From Qipengyuania soli (GTDB lineage Bacteria; Pseudomonadota; Alphaproteobacteria; Sphingomonadales; Sphingomonadaceae): a stretch of 64,000 nucleotides of DNA. Each line of letters starts with the position of its first letter. Position 1 is the first letter of the stretch. The translations under genes were made by a program, and so were the position numbers. The DNA lies in the NCBI RefSeq assembly GCF_015529805.1, contig NZ_CP064654.1, positions 2,728,001-2,792,000 on the forward strand, given 5' to 3'. This document shows positions 20,227-33,946 of the stretch, piece after piece. The notes beneath the pieces are model-generated. The model saw only the letters and a list, made by a program, of their open reading frames with translations. It had not been told where the DNA came from and searched no databases.

Positions 20227-20401
20227 CCTTGTGAGCGTTCGTCACGCTTGGAACGAGGCGAACCAGGGCGAGGGGTTCAACAGGGGGGAAAACCCGCTCG
20301 CTTCGTCTCGTGAATTACAAACTAGGCCTCGCCCGCTTGCTCTTCAATGAACAAACGGCGGCGGGATGTCGCAAATTTACAACCGCCCGCCGTCCATCCG
20401 T

Positions 20402-21061
20402 TTACCGTGGGCGACGAGACGTTTTGCGCGGATCCTTGAAGGTGAACGCGCTGTCGGCAACCGCGACACCATAACGCTGGTTGCGCAGGCGCACCGTGGT
20501 GCGATTGTTCTGTGAATCGAGCGCCACCCAGTGCGTGAGCTGCAAACCGCCCGGCGCGGCACCGTCGCGGCTGAAGATCAGCGTGATCACGCCATACTCG
20601 GGATGCTTGGTGTCGCGCACTTCCACGCTGATCACATCGGGGTGACTGGTGGGCAGCAGTTTACCGTACTTCTTCACGTCGCGGCTGGGGTCGAGCAGCG
20701 CACCGAGCGGCGAGTTCGAAATCGGCCAGCGCTGGACCTGCTTCACCTCGTAATCGACGAGGTACATCGACTTGCCGTTCGACACGACGAGCATGGGCAC
20801 GCTCTTGTCGTATTCGAAGCGGATCTTGCCGGGGCGCTTCAGCGTCATCACGCCTGCGACGGACTGGCCGTTGCGGTCGGTCTGGATGAAATCCGCCTTC
20901 ATGGTGGAGATGGCGCGCAGCGCGCCAACCGCCTTGTCGAGATCGCCCGCGGCGGCTTCGGCCGGCGGTGTGGCGAACATGGCGGACGCAGGAAGCGCCG
21001 CGGCCAGCGAGAGGGCCAGCGCGGCGCGGATCGGTTTTGCTTTGAAAGACAAGTTGCTCAT
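20402..21061 (-). CDS. lolA: Outer-membrane lipoprotein carrier protein LolA
   Basis: A 219-residue periplasmic chaperone that ferries lipoproteins from LolCDE to the outer membrane. A signal peptide is visible (residues 1 to about 38). The body has LolA features: MKADFIQTDRNGQSVAGVMTLKRPGKIRFEY, YLVDYEVKQVQRWPISNSPLGALLDP and a beta-rich C terminus. The ATG at 21061 starts the signal sequence; the longer open frame upstream runs antisense through rpmG-proximal DNA and is rejected. It fits the many lipoproteins in this window. Confidence 0.93.
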   Translation of the reverse strand: MSNLSFKAKPIRAALALSLAAALPASAMFATPPAEAAAGDLDKAVGALRAISTMKADFIQTDRNGQSVAGVMTLKRPGKIRFEYDKSVPMLVVSNGKSMYLVDYEVKQVQRWPISNSPLGALLDPSRDVKKYGKLLPTSHPDVISVEVRDTKHPEYGVITLIFSRDGAAPGGLQLTHWVALDSQNNRTTVRLRNQRYGVAVADSAFTFKDPRKTSRRPR

Positions 21062-24416: not shown

Positions 24417-25943
24417 ATGAGCGAGATTTTCCTCGGAGCAACCGAAAGCGGCGAACGGCAGGTATTGCTGCTCGGCCAGGCCAACCGGCACGGGCTCGTC
24501 GCGGGGGCGACAGGTACAGGCAAGACCGTCACGCTCCAGGGACTTGCCGAGAGCTTCTCTGCCAATGGCGTTCCGGTGTTCCTTGCCGATGTGAAGGGCG
24601 ACCTGTCGGGCATCTCCATGTCGGGATCGCCGCAGTTCAAACATGCCGACAAGCTGGAAGGACGCGCCAAGCAGCTCGGCATGACCGATTATGTCTATGC
24701 CGACAACGCAGCGGTGTTCTGGGACCTGTATGGCGAGAAGGGTTTCCCGATCCGCACTACGGTTTCGGAAATGGGCCCGCTGCTGCTCGCCCGCCTGCTC
24801 GATCTGAACGAGACGCAGGAAGGTGTGCTCAACATCGTCTTCCGCTTTGCCGACGAACAGAACCTGCTGCTCCTCGACCTTGGCGACCTGCAATCGATGC
24901 TCGCCTATACGGCAGAAAACGCCTCCGAGCTCTCGGCCAAGTACGGCAATGTCACCAAGGCAAGTGTCGGCACGATCCAGCGCCAGCTGCTGAGCTTCGA
25001 ATCGCAAGGCGCGGACCTGTTCTTCGGCGAGCCCGCGCTGGAGATCGACGATTTCCTGCAGGTCGACGATCAGGGTCGCGGGGTGATCAACATCCTCTCG
25101 GCGCAGAAGCTGATGCAGGGACCGAAGCTCTACGCGACCTTCCTGCTGTGGTTGCTTTCGGAGCTTTTCGAGACCTTGCCCGAAGTGGGCGACCCCGAGA
25201 AACCGAAGCTGGTTTTCTTCTTCGATGAAGCCCACCTGTTGTTCGACGAAGCGCCCGATGCGCTGCAGGACAAGGTCGAACAGGTGGTGCGCCTCATCCG
25301 CTCCAAGGGCGTCGGCGTCTATTTCGTCACCCAGAACCCGATCGACATCCCGGAAAAGATCGCCGGCCAGCTGGGTAATCGCATCCAGCACGCACTGCGC
25401 GCCTTCACCCCGCGCGACCAGAGGGCGATCAAGGCGGCGGCCGAAACTTTCCGCATCAATCCCGACCTCGACGTCGCGCAGGCCATTACGGAACTGAAAG
25501 TGGGCGAGGCGCTGGTCTCCACGCTCGACGAGGATGGCGCGCCGACATTGGTCCAGCGCACGCTGATAAAGCCGCCGCATTCGCGCCTCGGCACGGTGAC
25601 CGACAAGGAACTGGCGATCATCAATTCGGTGAGCAATCTCGACGGAAAGTACGACACGCGGGTCGACCGGGAGTCCGCCGAGGAAGTGCTCGCCGCCAAG
25701 GCCGCCGATGCCGCGGCGACCGCAGCCGAGGTCGAGGAGAAAGGGCGCGAGGAAGTCGGCAAGCGCAGCCGTACGACCACCTCCATGTGGGGCAAGGCGG
25801 GCAAGGCTGCCGCCACTGCGGCTGCCGGGTCGCTCAGTTCGATCGCTGTCGCGGCGGTGCTGGGCAAGAAGTCGAGCGCCGACCCAGTTCGCACCGGGCT
25901 AAATGCGTTCGTCCGGAATATCGTGGGCGGATTGATGCGTTAG
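24417..25943 (+). CDS. HerA-like ATPase, DUF853 family (YjgR-like)
   Basis: A 508-residue P-loop ATPase of the HerA/FtsK superfamily. Walker A is at residues 30-37 (GATGTGKT) and Walker B in [16 protein letters not shown]. Further superfamily motifs are [11 protein letters not shown] and [19 protein letters not shown]. The C terminus is Ala-rich and basic. Known members are abundant cytoplasmic proteins with poorly defined roles; no NurA nuclease is adjacent, so a HerA-NurA repair complex is not supported. GGGAG precedes the ATG. Its stop overlaps that of the histidine kinase gene (TTAG). Confidence 0.9.
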
Positions 25944-27367
25944 CCCGGCAGTCGGAACTCTGCCCTCAGCCCGCCTTCCGGGCGGTTGGTCAGGACCAGA
26001 GTGCCACCATGCTGCTCGGCCACCGCGCGGGCGATGGTCAGGCCAAGGCCGGCCCCGCCGGTCTCTCGGTTCCGGCTGGTCTCGCCACGGGTGAATGGCT
26101 CCAGCATTGATGAGATGCGGTCTCCGGGTATGCCGGGACCGTCATCGTCGACGCGCAGTATCACCTGTCCTGCATCACGCGTGACGGAAACCCGCGCTGT
26201 GCCTGCGTAGCGCAGGGCATTGGTAACGAGGTTGCGCAGGCCGCGCTTCAGCCATGTGAGGTGCACCGGCGCAACGATCCGACCGCCGGTTTCGAGGGTC
26301 ACGGGCTCGCCCATGTCCTCGAATTCTTCAACCACCGAGGCCGCGAGAGCGCCAAGCTCGACGCTTTCGGCTTCCGAGTGATTGCGGCCGATGCGGGCGA
26401 GCGAAAGGATCTCGTCGAGCGTGAGAGTGATCTCCTCGATAGTCTGCGCCATCTTCGTCCGGGCGCCCTCGTCCTCGACGCCTTCGATACGCACGCGCAG
26501 GGCTGCGAGAGGGGTCTTGAGGTCGTGGCCGATAGCGCCGAGCATGACGTCCTTCTCGTCGAGCATCGAGCCGATGCGGCTCTGCATCGCATTGTGAGCT
26601 TCGATCAGGTGGCGAACGTCATCGGGGCCGGTTGGCTCCAGGGCAGGCTCGGGTGAGCCGGACCCGGCGAACCGGCGAGTACTCTCGGCAAGCGCGGCAA
26701 GCGGCCCGGTAATGCGCCGCAGGACCAGGTACAACAAGCCGACGAGCACGACGAACATGATCACCGTCTGGAGTATCAGCGTGCGAACCATGGCCCGTTC
26801 CTGTTGCGGCACGGGAATGCGCGCGACCTGCCAAGTGTCGCTGCCTTGCTGGCGCAGGCCCACTACCAGCAGCGCGTGCGGCAGGTCGCGCAGGCGGCGG
26901 TGGATCAGCGGGTAGTTTTCGGCTGCCTGTTTCACCTCGGGGTCGGACATGAATGTGCGCTCGACCACGACGAGGTCGGCAACTTCGATGCCTTGCGATT
27001 CAAGCATGGCCTGCAGCGTATCCTCACGCTGCGTCGAGCGGTTGTCGTTGGCGGCGAGGGGATTGGATCCGCCCTCGCTGTAGCGCAGGCGCCGGGGGAG
27101 CCTGGGAGAAAGCGGATCGTCCTCGCGCGGGCCGCGGCGGAAGGCCTCTTCGCGTGCGCCACGACCACGCCGGTCACGGGCTTCCTCGCGGTCCATCCGG
27201 GCAGGCCCGGTCAGCAGCTGGAAGGCGACCGCATGCAGAAGACCCAGCTCGCGCCGCTGTTCGGCTGCGCGGTAAAGGAGGGCGGAGGATATCGCCTGCG
27301 CCACGAGCAGCGCGACGGCGGTGGCCAGCAACACCTGGCCGAGCAGGCTACGAGGGGCGACGCGCAT
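25940..27367 (-). CDS. Sensor histidine kinase (OmpR-type partner)
   Basis: This 475-residue inner-membrane kinase has TM1 at about residues 8-32, a periplasmic region of about 160 residues with an Arg/Asp/Glu-rich stretch (about 58-85), TM2 at about 197-217 and a HAMP linker. The phospho-acceptor His281 is in [14 protein letters not shown], followed by an ATPase domain ([29 protein letters not shown]). The ATG at 27367 overlaps the regulator stop (TGATG); a GTG three bases earlier is the alternative. The ligand is unknown, but the EF-hand gene upstream suggests cation sensing. Confidence 0.94.
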
Positions 27368-28101
27368 CACACAGGGTCCTTGGCGATACGGGTCACATCG
27401 GCGGCGAGGCGGTATCCGCCGCCGCGCACGGTCTGGATCAGCAGCGGGTTGCGACTGTCGACCTCCAGCTTGCGACGCAACCGGCTGACCTGGTTGTCGA
27501 CTGCGCGATCGAACAGTTGCGCCTCGCGCCCCTGGACCATGTCGAGCAGGCGATCGCGGTCGAGCACCTGGCGCGGGTGATCGCAGAAGGCGCGCAGCAT
27601 GCGGAACTCTGCCGTCGAGATGGGTATGAGGGCACCTTCAGGATCGGTCAGGCGGCGCTTGAGCGGATCGAGCGTCCACCCTTCGAAGCGATAGGCCAGT
27701 TCAACGTCCTGTGGTTGGGTCGGACGTTCGGCGCGGCGCAGGACCGAGCGGATGCGGGCGACCAGTTCGCGCGGCTCGAATGGTTTGGTCACGTAATCGT
27801 CGGCACCGATTTCCAGCCCAACGATGCGGTCCATCGCCTCGCCGCGCGCGGTCAGGAGGATGACGGGCAGGTGCCGGCTTTCGACCAGGTGGCGGCAGAG
27901 CGACAGACCGTCCTCGCCCGGCATCATGATGTCGAGCAGGACGAGGTCGGGCGGGTCCTGCGTCAGTCGCGTGCGTGCGGCGGCGGCGCTCTCGGCCTCA
28001 TGCACGACGAACCCCTGGCGAGTGAGATACTCTGCCAGGGGTTCGCGCAGGGATCGCTCGTCGTCGACGAGGAGCAGGGTGGTGGGCGCGGCGTCGGTCA
28101 T
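27367..28101 (-). CDS. OmpR/PhoB family response regulator
   Basis: A 244-residue regulator with a receiver domain: acidic pocket Asp13-Asp14, phospho-acceptor Asp57 in VLLDIMMPG and Lys in DDYVTKPFEPRELVAR. The winged-helix DNA-binding domain runs from about residues 135-240 (STAEFRMLRAFCDHPRQVLDRDRLL...VDNQVSRLRRKLE...TVRGGGYRL). It is coupled to the downstream histidine kinase by an overlapping start, so the two form a classic pair. It follows the EF-hand gene by 49 bases and may be in the same transcript. Confidence 0.96.
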   Translation of the reverse strand: MTDAAPTTLLLVDDERSLREPLAEYLTRQGFVVHEAESAAAARTRLTQDPPDLVLLDIMMPGEDGLSLCRHLVESRHLPVILLTARGEAMDRIVGLEIGADDYVTKPFEPRELVARIRSVLRRAERPTQPQDVELAYRFEGWTLDPLKRRLTDPEGALIPISTAEFRMLRAFCDHPRQVLDRDRLLDMVQGREAQLFDRAVDNQVSRLRRKLEVDSRNPLLIQTVRGGGYRLAADVTRIAKDPV

Positions 28102-29513: not shown

Positions 29514-31316
29514 CTACAAGGGTGCGCATTCCCGTTCGAGCCATGCCAGATCCTCGCCATCGAGCTGCGGCGCGAGGATCGCGCGGACCTGCTCGTGATA
29601 GCGGTTCCACCAGCCGATCTCCGCCTCGCTCAGCATCGACCTGTCGACCAGCTTGCGATCCAGCGGGACGAAGGTCAGCGTTTCGAAGCCGAGGTAATCG
29701 CCCTCGCTTGCGATCTGCGCCGGAACCACCAGCACCAGGTTCTCGATGCGGATGCCGTAGTGCCCGGCCTTGTAGTAACCGGGCTCGTTCGAGAGGATCA
29801 TGCCCGCGCGCAGTTCGGTCATACTGCCGGGATAGGGGCCATTCGGCTTGGCGATCCGCTGCGGGCCTTCGTGGACCGAGAGATAGCTTCCGACCCCGTG
29901 GCCGGTGCCGTGGTTGAAGTCGACCCCGCCGGCCCACAGGTGCATGCGCGCCAGCGCGTCGAGCGCGCCGCCCGTGGTCCCTTGCGGGAAAGTCTGCATG
30001 GCGAGCTGGATATGGCCCTTGAGGACGCGGGTGTTGCGCTCGACCATTTCCGCGCTTGGTTCTCCCGGGCCGACCCAGACGGTGCGGGTAATGTCGGTTG
30101 TGCCGTCGGCATACTGGCCGCCCGAATCCACGAGGTAGATGGAGGAAGGCGGGATCGGGATATTGCTGTCTTCATCGACCTTGTAGTGCGGCAGGGCGGC
30201 GTGCGGTCCTGCGGCGCTGATGGTGTCGAAGCTCAGATCGCGCAGGTTCCCGCCCTCCGCGCGGAATTCGCGCAGCTTGGCGGCGGCGGTCAGTTCGTCG
30301 ATCTTGCCGCTCGGCGCCTCGATTTCGAGCCAGCGGAGGAAGCGGGTCACGGCCGCGCCGTCGCGCGCCTGCGCGTCGCGGTGGCCCTGCTGTTCGGTGG
30401 GATTCTTGATCGCCTTGGGCAGGACGGTGGGATCGCCTTCGCGCACGACCCTGGCGCCGCTTGCTGCCAGCGCATGGAAGATGCCGGCCACGGCATGCTG
30501 CGGATCGACCGCGACGGTCTTGCCCGATAGCGTTGCCAGCGCAGGTTCGAACTCGTCGCGCGGACGCACCGAAACGGCATTGCCGAGGTGCTGGGTCAGC
30601 TCCGGCGTGACCTTCTCCGGCGCGATGAACAGTTCCGCCGTGCCGTCGGCATGGGCGAGGACATAGGACAGCGCCACCGGCGTGCTGTCGACATCGGTGC
30701 CGCGCAAATTGAGCAGCCAGGCGACCGAATCCAGCGCGGTGATGACCGTCGCGTCATAGCCTTCCTTCTTCAGCCAGTCGGCGACTTCGGCGCGCTTGTC
30801 GGCGCTCGAACGGCCGGCAAGCCTCTCGTCATGCGGCGTCGCGTGGTTCAGCGAAGGCTGCGGGCGGTCGTCCCAGATCGCGTCGATCGGATTGCCGTCG
30901 ACCGGGACCAGCTCGATGCCCTTCTTCGCGAACAGTTTTTCCGCCGCTTCGGCCCAGCCGATCCCGTGGAGCCATGCGTCGTAGCCGATGCGGCTGCCAT
31001 TGGCTGCGTTGTCGGCAATCCACTTCGCCGGGCTGGTCGCGGGCACATCCTCGTAATCGTAGAGCTTGCCGTCGACCTGGTCTCGCACCTGCACCGTGTA
31101 GCGGCCGTCGGTGAACATGGCGGCCTTGTCCTTCAGCACCACGGCGCTGCCCGCGCTGCCGCCGAAGCCGGTCAGCCATTTGAGGCGCTGGGCATAGGAG
31201 CCGACGTATTCGCTCATGTGCTCGTCCGAGATGGGAATGACGAAGCCGTCGAGCCCGCGCCTGCCCAATTCCTTGCGCAGGGCGTCGAGGCGGGCTTCGT
31301 GGGTTTGCATGAGCAT
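29514..31316 (-). CDS. M24 family Xaa-Pro aminopeptidase
   Basis: A 600-residue aminopeptidase P of the long three-domain type: two creatinase-like N-terminal domains and a C-terminal pita-bread catalytic domain. Metal ligands are recognisable in LVDSGGQYADGTTDITRT (two Asp), HGTGHGVG (His), LSNEPGYY (Glu) and GIRIENL (Glu). GAGGA lies about ten bases before the ATG. No signal peptide, so cytoplasmic removal of N-terminal residues before proline is expected. Divergent from the S9 peptidase gene. Confidence 0.95.
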   Translation of the reverse strand: MLMQTHEARLDALRKELGRRGLDGFVIPISDEHMSEYVGSYAQRLKWLTGFGGSAGSAVVLKDKAAMFTDGRYTVQVRDQVDGKLYDYEDVPATSPAKWIADNAANGSRIGYDAWLHGIGWAEAAEKLFAKKGIELVPVDGNPIDAIWDDRPQPSLNHATPHDERLAGRSSADKRAEVADWLKKEGYDATVITALDSVAWLLNLRGTDVDSTPVALSYVLAHADGTAELFIAPEKVTPELTQHLGNAVSVRPRDEFEPALATLSGKTVAVDPQHAVAGIFHALAASGARVVREGDPTVLPKAIKNPTEQQGHRDAQARDGAAVTRFLRWLEIEAPSGKIDELTAAAKLREFRAEGGNLRDLSFDTISAAGPHAALPHYKVDEDSNIPIPPSSIYLVDSGGQYADGTTDITRTVWVGPGEPSAEMVERNTRVLKGHIQLAMQTFPQGTTGGALDALARMHLWAGGVDFNHGTGHGVGSYLSVHEGPQRIAKPNGPYPGSMTELRAGMILSNEPGYYKAGHYGIRIENLVLVVPAQIASEGDYLGFETLTFVPLDRKLVDRSMLSEAEIGWWNRYHEQVRAILAPQLDGEDLAWLERECAPL

Positions 31317-31440
31317 GGGCGGGTATCCTCTTGTGTTTCAGTTGGGCTGCGTCGTGACGCTTGCCGCGTGCTCTTGGCACGCATAGTCATGCGCCCCACT
31401 TAGGCCCCTCCGGCATCCTTTTCCACCCGTTGCCAAGCTC

Positions 31441-31455
31441 AGGAGTTGTCCCATT
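31441..31455 (+). promoter_or_regulatory. Ribosome-binding site and AUU initiation codon
   Basis: AGGAG at 31441-31445 lies seven bases upstream of ATT at 31453. The reading frame from this ATT continues without interruption into the S9 peptidase, and no ATG, GTG, TTG or CTG exists in frame between the preceding stop (TAG at 31384) and the start of the conserved N-terminal region. Confidence 0.7.
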
Positions 31456-33549
31456 TCGACGAGCCGCCCCGCACCCCAGGAACTAAACCCCCCGAAGGCA
31501 GAAAAACGCGAGCATTCCTACACCCATCACGGGATCACCATCGCTGATCCCTATGCCTGGCTGCGCGACCCTGGATACCCCGAGGTCAAGGACAAGGATG
31601 TCCTTGCACATCTCGAGGCGGAGAACGCCTGGTTCGAGGCGCGCATGGAGCCCCACAAGGAACTCGTCGAGACGCTGTTCAAGGAGATGAAGGCGCGCAT
31701 CAAGGAAGACGATTCCACCGTCCCCCAGCGCCGCGGCAACTGGCTTTACTGGTCGGAATTCGAAGAGGGCGCGGAATATCGCAAATACTACCGCAAGCCC
31801 GCCGAGGGCGATGGCGAGGCACAGCTGATCCTCGACGAGAACGAGCTTGCGGCGGGCCACGAATATTTCCGCCTCGGCACCTTCTCGGTGTCCGACAACG
31901 GCAAGCTGCTGGCCTATTCGGTCGATACCAACGGGTCGGAACGATTCACCGCGCGCTTCAAGATCATCGAAAGCGGCGAACACCTGCCCGACGAGATTCC
32001 GGGCACGTTATCGGATCTGGTCTGGGTCAAGGCTGATACCGCAGTTGTCTATGGCCTCGCCGACGAGAACTGGCGCGTGCACGACGCGACGCTCCACGTG
32101 CTCGGCACACCGCTGAGTGAGGACGTCGAACTTTACCGTGAGACCGAGGACGAAGGCTTTCGCGTCGGCGCGGGCCTGTCGGCGCAGGAAGACTGGCTGG
32201 TCATCGCGACGGGCGACAACGAAACGTCCGAAGTGCGGCTGGTCCCGGCGAACGACCCGACCGCGGCGCCGATACTCGTCAAGCCGCGCAAGAAAGGCGT
32301 CGAATACGATGTCGATCTACGCGACGGCACCTTGTGGATCCACACGAACGACGAACACGTCAATTTTCGCCTCGCCACGGCTCCTCTCGAACGACCCGGC
32401 GAATGGACGACGCTGATCGAAGGATCGGACGAGTTCTATCTCGACGGCTTCGAACTCTACCGTGATTTCTACGTCACCGAGGGGCGGATCAAGGGACTCG
32501 ACCAGATCCAGCTGCGTTCCTACGCCGACCCTAATCTCGTGAAGCCCATCGCATTTGCCGAAGCGAGTTTCACCACCGGGCTGACCAACAACCCCGAATA
32601 CCACCAGGACAAGCTGCGGCTGTCGTACCAGAGCATGGTCACGCCGGACTCGGTCTATGACTACCACGTCGCGACCGGCGAACTCGAACTGCTCAAGCAG
32701 CAGGAAATCCCGAGCGGATACGACGCCTCGCTTTACGTGACCGAGCGGCTGGAAATCGAGGCGCGGGACGGGACCATGGTCCCGGTCAGCGTGGTCATGC
32801 GCAAGGACCGCGAGCCGGGCGGTCCGCTGCACCTCTACGCCTATGGCGCCTACGGCTATGCCGTGCCGCCGGGTTTTTCGACCACGCGCCTCAGCCTCGT
32901 CGATCGCGGTTTCGCCTATGCCATCGCGCATATCCGTGGCGGCGACGATCTCGGGCGCAAGTGGTACCTTGCGGGCAAGCTTGCCGAGCGGACCAACACC
33001 TTCAACGATTTCGTCGACGTGGCCAAGGGACTGGTCGCAAAGGGCTACACGCAAAAGGGGCGCATCAGCATTTCGGGTGGCTCGGCCGGGGGCGAACTGA
33101 TGGGCGTCGTCGCCAATACCGACCCCGACCTGTGGGGCGCGGTGGTGGCGCATGTGCCCTTCGTCGACGTGCTTTCGACCATGCTCGATGGAGACTTGCC
33201 CCTGACCCCCGGCGAGTGGCCGGAGTGGGGCAATCCGATTGTCTCGAAGCAGGCCTTTGCGCAGATCCTTGCCTACAGCCCCTATGACCAGGTGGTGGCG
33301 CAGGATTACCCGCCGATGCTGGTGACCGCCGGGCTAAACGACCCGCGGGTCACCTATTGGGAGCCGGCAAAGTGGGTCGCCAAGCTGCGCGAGCTCAAGA
33401 CCGACGGCAACGAATTGCTGCTGAAGACCAACATGGGCGCCGGCCATGGCGGCAAGTCGGGCCGCTTCGAGAGCATTCGCGAGACAGCCGAGGAGGTCGC
33501 CTTCGTGCTGTGGCAACTCGGGGTGACCGAACATCGGGGTGAACGGTGA
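31453..33549 (+). CDS. S9 family peptidase (oligopeptidase B / prolyl oligopeptidase type)
   Basis: This serine oligopeptidase is 698 residues if started at ATT 31453. The seven-bladed propeller is followed by an alpha/beta-hydrolase domain with the triad Ser544 (GGSAGGELMG), Asp630 (GLNDPRV) and His665 (GAGHGG). The first in-frame ATG (31645) would remove the conserved N-terminal block IADPYAWLRDPGYPE typical of S9A enzymes, so translation must begin upstream. No signal peptide; cytoplasmic. Divergent from the M24 peptidase and followed closely by a thioesterase. Confidence 0.93.
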   Translation: MSTSRPAPQELNPPKAEKREHSYTHHGITIADPYAWLRDPGYPEVKDKDVLAHLEAENAWFEARMEPHKELVETLFKEMKARIKEDDSTVPQRRGNWLYWSEFEEGAEYRKYYRKPAEGDGEAQLILDENELAAGHEYFRLGTFSVSDNGKLLAYSVDTNGSERFTARFKIIESGEHLPDEIPGTLSDLVWVKADTAVVYGLADENWRVHDATLHVLGTPLSEDVELYRETEDEGFRVGAGLSAQEDWLVIATGDNETSEVRLVPANDPTAAPILVKPRKKGVEYDVDLRDGTLWIHTNDEHVNFRLATAPLERPGEWTTLIEGSDEFYLDGFELYRDFYVTEGRIKGLDQIQLRSYADPNLVKPIAFAEASFTTGLTNNPEYHQDKLRLSYQSMVTPDSVYDYHVATGELELLKQQEIPSGYDASLYVTERLEIEARDGTMVPVSVVMRKDREPGGPLHLYAYGAYGYAVPPGFSTTRLSLVDRGFAYAIAHIRGGDDLGRKWYLAGKLAERTNTFNDFVDVAKGLVAKGYTQKGRISISGGSAGGELMGVVANTDPDLWGAVVAHVPFVDVLSTMLDGDLPLTPGEWPEWGNPIVSKQAFAQILAYSPYDQVVAQDYPPMLVTAGLNDPRVTYWEPAKWVAKLRELKTDGNELLLKTNMGAGHGGKSGRFESIRETAEEVAFVLWQLGVTEHRGER

Positions 33550-33550
33550 C

Positions 33551-33946
33551 ATGAAACGCTTCACTCGGACCTTCGTGGCCGCTCCCGGGCACATCGACGA
33601 GCTTGGCCATGTCAACAATACCGTCTGGGTCCGATGGATCCAGGACATGGCCACCGCACACTGGGATGCCGTCGCGCGACCGGAAGATCGCGAGGCGTTC
33701 TTCTGGGTCGTGAGCCGTCACGAGATCGATTATCGCGGCAATGTCGACGAGGGGCAGACCGTCACCGGCGAGACCTGGATCGAAGGCCCCGCACGCGGTG
33801 CGACCTCGCTCCGCCGGGTCGATTTCCGCAACGATGCGGGCAAGGTGATCGTCTCCGCTGCGACCACCTGGGCGATGCTCGACCGGGCGAGTAACCGCCT
33901 GGTCCGCGTCCGGCCCGAGGTCCTGGCACCCTTCTCCGAAGACTAG
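33551..33946 (+). CDS. Acyl-CoA thioesterase (4HBT-like hot-dog)
   Basis: A 131-residue single hot-dog protein. The N-terminal motif HIDELGHVNNTVWVRWIQD matches the D-x-x-G-H-V-N-N active-site block of 4-hydroxybenzoyl-CoA thioesterase-like enzymes. The ATG at 33551 follows the S9 stop by one base; a GTG at 33539 overlapping that gene is the alternative. Substrate unknown. Its stop TAG shares a CTAG tetramer with the stop of the convergent diguanylate cyclase. Confidence 0.9.
   Translation: MKRFTRTFVAAPGHIDELGHVNNTVWVRWIQDMATAHWDAVARPEDREAFFWVVSRHEIDYRGNVDEGQTVTGETWIEGPARGATSLRRVDFRNDAGKVIVSAATTWAMLDRASNRLVRVRPEVLAPFSED

Follow-up and report, generated by a model that had tools for sequence, protein, structure and literature searches.

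Peptidase gene and its reading frame

An oligopeptidase B-like S9 peptidase is encoded at 31453..33549 (+) of the window, by which we mean the whole 64-kb stretch of DNA analysed here, and its proposed coding sequence runs over 698 codons from an ATT start codon (31453..31455, +) to TGA. The reading frame is open from 31387 to 33546, between TAG at 31384-31386 and TGA at 33547-33549. On its 5' side lies a divergent, conserved ORF (29514..31337, -; 91% identity with the better-matching of two relatives), which we take to be aminopeptidase P-like, and on its 3' side an ORF (33551..33946, +) that is thioesterase-like by eye and whose start adjoins the peptidase stop. The Shine-Dalgarno (SD) sequence AGGAG (31441..31445, +) stands 7 nt 5' of the ATT. 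As an earlier note on this DNA had stated, the frame holds no ATG, GTG, TTG or CTG back to the stop at 31384: the 22 codons 5' of the ATT are free of all four, and so is the frame from the ATT to the conserved IADPYAWLRD block. The first in-frame ATG is found at 31645..31647 (+), residue 87 of the ORF, with GAGG five bases 5' of it in the window.

The conserved N-terminal block of the enzyme, said in that note to lie upstream of this ATG, does lie there: the match to the S9_N propeller (Pfam PF02897, 3.2e-91) begins at ORF residue 36, and AEKREHSYTHHGITIADPYAWLR is a stretch of the peptidase reading frame upstream of residue 65. The propeller and the S9 catalytic domain (PF00326, 1e-61) together give the domain order of oligopeptidase B. 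The match to NCBIfam NF007511 (PRK10115, oligopeptidase B) is strong at 540.8 bits but below the equivalog cut-off of 1313, and the name oligopeptidase B-like is therefore used. The best solved structures are also oligopeptidase B (PDB 7ywp, E 1.6e-165); the match to 7ywp and 7ne4 is full-length with the same domain order, whereas in the window protein about 11 residues form an N-terminal tail ahead of the aligned part, and its relatives have signal-peptide-like forms. Because residue 2 of 7ywp aligns with peptidase residue 12 counted from the ATT, little or nothing of the conserved enzyme would precede the proposed start. The translation contains GGSAGG, presumably the active-site motif; oligopeptidase B belongs to S9A and cleaves after Arg or Lys.

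Comparison of 53 conserved, non-overlapping ORFs of the window with two relatives gave, under a loose rule, 21 whose alignment extends 5' of their own first NTG. Ten of these, picked for a late first NTG, were inspected and the other 11 were left out, so the peptidase gene is not claimed as the sole case. Its ORF has 86 NTG-free codons, and the only inspected ORF with more (25943-27637, -; 89 codons) overlaps an upstream ORF. The other eight comprise three that overlap a neighbour, three with an ATG and an SD-like stretch, one cut by the window edge and one unexplained (20235-20471, +), a small conserved ORF of 79 aa with 67% identity, in which NTG first occurs at codon 26, as a GTG without an evident SD.

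Conservation of the ATT codon in one clade

The genus search covered 60 genomes, and the gene was found, and its 5' end read, in 59; the genome with no match to the peptidase gene, G013, is 75% complete. The SD, spacer and ATT recur in 10 of the 59 congeneric orthologues (G000, G002, G007, G015, G035, G066, G070, G075, G076 and G078), and the 49 others use other starts. The motif had twelve matches in the genus, two of which (G032, G082) are at other places and were left out of the count. A signal-peptide-like N-terminus, as judged by eye, is present in 45 of the 59, and in four divergent congeners (G004, G022, G072, G073) an ATG start lies directly before the mature domain. In a set of 199 family genomes that included only four from the genus, the motif occurred without mismatch only in the window's own genome, with three one-mismatch matches elsewhere. 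Two Qipengyuania sp. loci (L037, L038) start like the ATT clade, their first 200 residues duplicating rows of the genus set, and among 36 further loci, largely from Novosphingobium and other Sphingomonadales, 35 have an in-frame ATG shortly before the mature domain and one (L096) is cut short. In a protein tree of 128 rows (17 of them short), built by a quick method, all ten ATT rows group as a single clade (SH-aLRT 99) nested in the signal-peptide group, with G001, G081, G008, G024 and G068 as neighbours (support 88).

Alignment of orthologues at the start region, which the earlier note had proposed as a check, shows that ten species keep ATT with an invariant AGGAG at the same spacing, the common sequence being AGGAGTT[G/C/T][T/C]CCC-ATT-TC and the SD duplex energies -6.9 to -8.2 kcal/mol. 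A sequencing error, named there as a possible refutation, is thereby excluded, since ten genomes share the ATT. In eight of the ten the leader, read for up to 75 codons 5' of the ATT, is free of NTG; G002 and G078 have an in-frame GTG 7 codons 5' of the ATT with almost no SD (-1.5 and -1.8), and the frame of G007 stays open much further 5', where NTG codons occur more than 80 codons before the ATT. Within the first 80 alignment columns, the start-like codons invariant in all ten are ATT at column 0, ATC at 29, CTG at 36 and ATG at 64 and 78, so that only an inner ATC and a CTG lie between the ATT and ATG 31645. Among 16 Ile columns common to the ten members, ATT is invariant at the start only and seven others are invariant ATC, with a total codon use of ATT 29 (ten being the start itself), ATC 184 and ATA 13. 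Columns with a single codon in all ten make up 116 of 449 conserved non-Met/Trp columns and 8 of the 16 Ile columns; since such invariance is not rare, the case rests on the SD, its spacing and the missing alternatives together. As far as sequence can tell, this combination supports the AUU start that the earlier note had suggested.

The codons that follow the ATT evolve as protein. Pairwise differences 5' of the SD are spread over all three codon positions (0.099, 0.172, 0.215), and just 3' of the start they are concentrated at the third (0.058, 0.046, 0.235). Because indels distorted an ungapped comparison beyond +120 (0.225, 0.222, 0.373), omega was computed from aligned sequences instead. 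For codons 2-64, from the ATT to ATG 31645, its mean is 0.162 across those pairs in which it is defined (synonymous changes are missing from this stretch in at least one pair), and for codons 2 to about 590, the readable gene, it is 0.105 over 45 pairs. The window leader RNA folds no better than shuffles (z 1.23).

These data bear on three readings in which the ATT is not the working start. Initiation at ATG 31645, with the conserved codons upstream untranslated and the enzyme shorter, would be the choice of any annotation restricted to NTG, and this ATG is invariant in 10/10 members and has its GAGG in the window; but the low omega of codons 2-64, the mostly third-position differences over most of this stretch, and the alignment of S9_N and of solved oligopeptidase B chains well upstream of the ATG make it highly improbable. 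A short upstream ORF that brings ribosomes into the frame, through coupling or a frameshift, is more improbable again: an out-of-frame ATG/GTG does lie 64 nt 5' in all ten members and a TTG 23 nt 5' in seven, but the ORFs from the former stop at -52 in four members and at +347 or later in six, those from the TTG stop anywhere from -20 to +223, and no upstream ORF stop near the ATT is conserved among the ten. Seven of the ten lack an out-of-frame TTG at -7. The least credible reading is that the start has been lost and the gene is untranslated or decaying; AUU is indeed a poor start, at about 10% of AUG in the S. aureus reporters in poor medium described in PMC13009471, but the frame is open in ten species, omega is about 0.10 and AGGAG is invariant.

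Two candidate starts in signal-peptide-type relatives

In 44 of the 45 signal-peptide-type congeners (all but G082) an upstream in-frame ATG/GTG is preceded by an SD-like sequence with a duplex energy of -5 kcal/mol or better, and in 45/45 exactly one in-frame NTG (42 GTG, 3 TTG) with a duplex of -3 kcal/mol or better lies between the signal peptide and the mature domain. The search range for this internal NTG was fixed but had been chosen after the sequences were seen, and the same peptides were therefore recoded synonymously as a control, which gave 15.3 of 45 expected. A further 28 loci were chosen by eye, L044 from Q. huizhouensis and 27 from beyond the genus set; an internal NTG is present in 27 of them, where 9.1 would be expected. 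The exception is L050, and L063 and L113 carry an ATG in a position that may not be equivalent to the internal start. Gene by gene the control is weak, with a mean frequency of 0.24 and 0.22 for recodings that equal the native sequence and just 5/45 and 3/28 genes under 0.1, and the counts come from related, not independent, sequences. At nine other mostly-Val columns the NTG share is at most 0.60, against all 45 at the internal start. The internal NTG thus supports, without proving, a cytosolic isoform from the same gene in these relatives.

More widely, in Erythrobacteraceae genes (L006-L030, L044-L103) the signal-peptide-like stretch is closely followed by an in-frame GTG/TTG that has an SD-like sequence, and exported and cytosolic forms of the oligopeptidase B-like enzyme from one gene are possible in this family. 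L046 (Parerythrobacter lacustris) has no evident signal peptide and probably starts at a TTG that follows CGAGGAAC at the cytosolic position. SpeA is known in two forms; a limited search of the open-access literature returned no precedent for a two-start oligopeptidase B, and no paper naming both Qipengyuania and oligopeptidase.

Probable origin and meaning of the proposed AUU start

The leader relates the ATT to the secretory start of the relatives, defined as whichever NTG within a fixed range has the best SD (a choice that looks wrong for G082). The TTTCCA element (31420..31425, +) stands 33 nt 5' of the ATT in the window and in 10/10 members, and it lies 33-36 nt 5' of the secretory start in 41/45 congeners, at 48 nt in two and is absent in two. 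Further upstream, 73 nt before the ATT, the window has the -10-like element CGCATAGTCA (31380..31389, +), for which CGCTTGC (31358-31364, +) may be the -35; a CGCATNNTCA-like element is found at 73 nt in 10/10 members and 74-77 nt 5' of the secretory start in 37/45, at 88 nt in two, the pattern being unmatched in six. A scan for consensus sigma-70 promoters found no site, so the role of the -10-like element is deduced only from its conservation. Median SD energy is -7.8 at the ATT and -8.6 at the secretory starts, and near -5.3 at most internal starts, and the ATT context resembles the secretory start of the near relatives G008, G024 and G068 (GAGGGGTTCATCC ATG TCG TCC).

Two side observations concern these leaders. 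About 15-17 extra nt separate a -35-like GCGCTTGC from the -10-like element at L118, L119 and L121-L126, that is in eight of ten ATT-clade members and not in G000 and G015, and the promoter may therefore have shifted. At L146 (G082), the -10-like CGCATAATCA lies about 3 nt 5' of an in-frame GTG that opens a signal-peptide-like reading, and this leader looks deleted, perhaps with a leaderless start.

Beyond what the earlier note had claimed, the AUU looks derived from the secretory start of the relatives, because 45 congeners use ATG/GTG at the equivalent leader position. Our first reading had been that the ATT replaced the relatives' internal, cytosolic GTG after loss of the signal peptide upstream. 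Counted in codons, the ATT (at -21 or -25) and the internal NTG (mostly at -19) lie about equally far from the mature domain, the product is identical under both histories, and the multiple alignment, which places gaps freely at the start region, does not decide the counterpart of the ATT; but the TTTCCA and -10-like distances match the secretory start, the sequence context resembles it, and on the leader distances this replacement was dropped as the favourite and is kept as an unlikely rival.

Based on these findings, we consider it very probable that AUU 31453 starts a probably cytosolic oligopeptidase B-like peptidase and is derived from a secretory start through deletion of the signal-peptide codons and the inner start. 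The ancestral-type form would have had a signal-peptide-like N-terminus, an upstream ATG/GTG and a second in-frame GTG/TTG with an SD-like sequence, from which a cytosolic form could be made, as may still be the case in the congeners. Since the ATT occupies the leader position of the secretory start, the ancestor of the ten-species clade probably underwent a deletion of the signal-peptide codons and inner start, which would have joined the original leader to the mature enzyme with the first codons kept, ended export and been accompanied by the change of the primary start codon to AUU. The well-spaced SD would then direct initiation at AUU, and, AUU being read by initiator tRNA, MSTSRP would be the first residues of the protein. 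Cytosolic enzyme would then probably be made at a low, IF3-sensitive level, and we speculate that the AUU offsets a strong SD that once served the exported form. A wider proposal, in which this is a two-start gene of the Erythrobacteraceae, one clade has lost the export form and the AUU is a selected, low-level, IF3-gated throttle in place of the weak internal start, is tentative and somewhat more likely to be wrong than right.

The closest known parallel, infC, was read in the genus itself: 58 genomes matched, 30 loci were taken (L157, L175-L203; L178 was not parsed), and in 29/29 loci read the apparent start is ATA after GGAG, the next in-frame NTG being codon 9. Relaxed IF3 in the ATT clade was considered and set aside, as 8 clade and 22 other IF3 sequences show no clear clade-specific change; only column 141 has non-overlapping residues, T/M in the clade and I/V in the others. 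Outside infC, E. coli pcnB has an AUU start. The infC start is given as ATT in E. coli and ATC in Streptomyces (PMC5472188) and as AUA in S. aureus (PMC13009471). Like infC, the window gene would have an AUH start after an SD, against which IF3 would discriminate; however, it encodes a peptidase, for which no feedback loop is expected, and the genus's own infC uses ATA. Published examples of AUU and AUA starts beyond infC exist: in S. aureus, cvfC1 (AUU) and ccpN (AUA) have conserved starts with a strong SD, mapped by ribosome profiling, and reporters with AUU or AUA reached about 10% of AUG output in poor medium (PMC13009471). The window gene shares with them a conserved non-canonical start in a non-infC gene, but it is an alphaproteobacterial enzyme gene, known from its sequence, whose start would be derived from a secretory one. 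Streptomyces sigR likewise combines a rare start codon outside infC with a longer isoform from an upstream start, but that codon is GTC, the gene is regulatory, the repression by IF3 was demonstrated experimentally (PMC5472188), and both isoforms belong to the same genome, whereas the longer peptidase form occurs only in relatives.

Start prediction leans heavily on ATG, GTG and TTG, as described in PMC5472188, and such genes are therefore probably truncated in databases. Few non-canonical starts have been characterised, and that of the peptidase has a traceable origin in the ATG/GTG of its relatives. The peptidase AUU may serve as a natural test of why a rare start is kept and of whether IF3 tunes genes besides its own. 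In the relatives, the second start suggests that a single peptidase is localised to two compartments.
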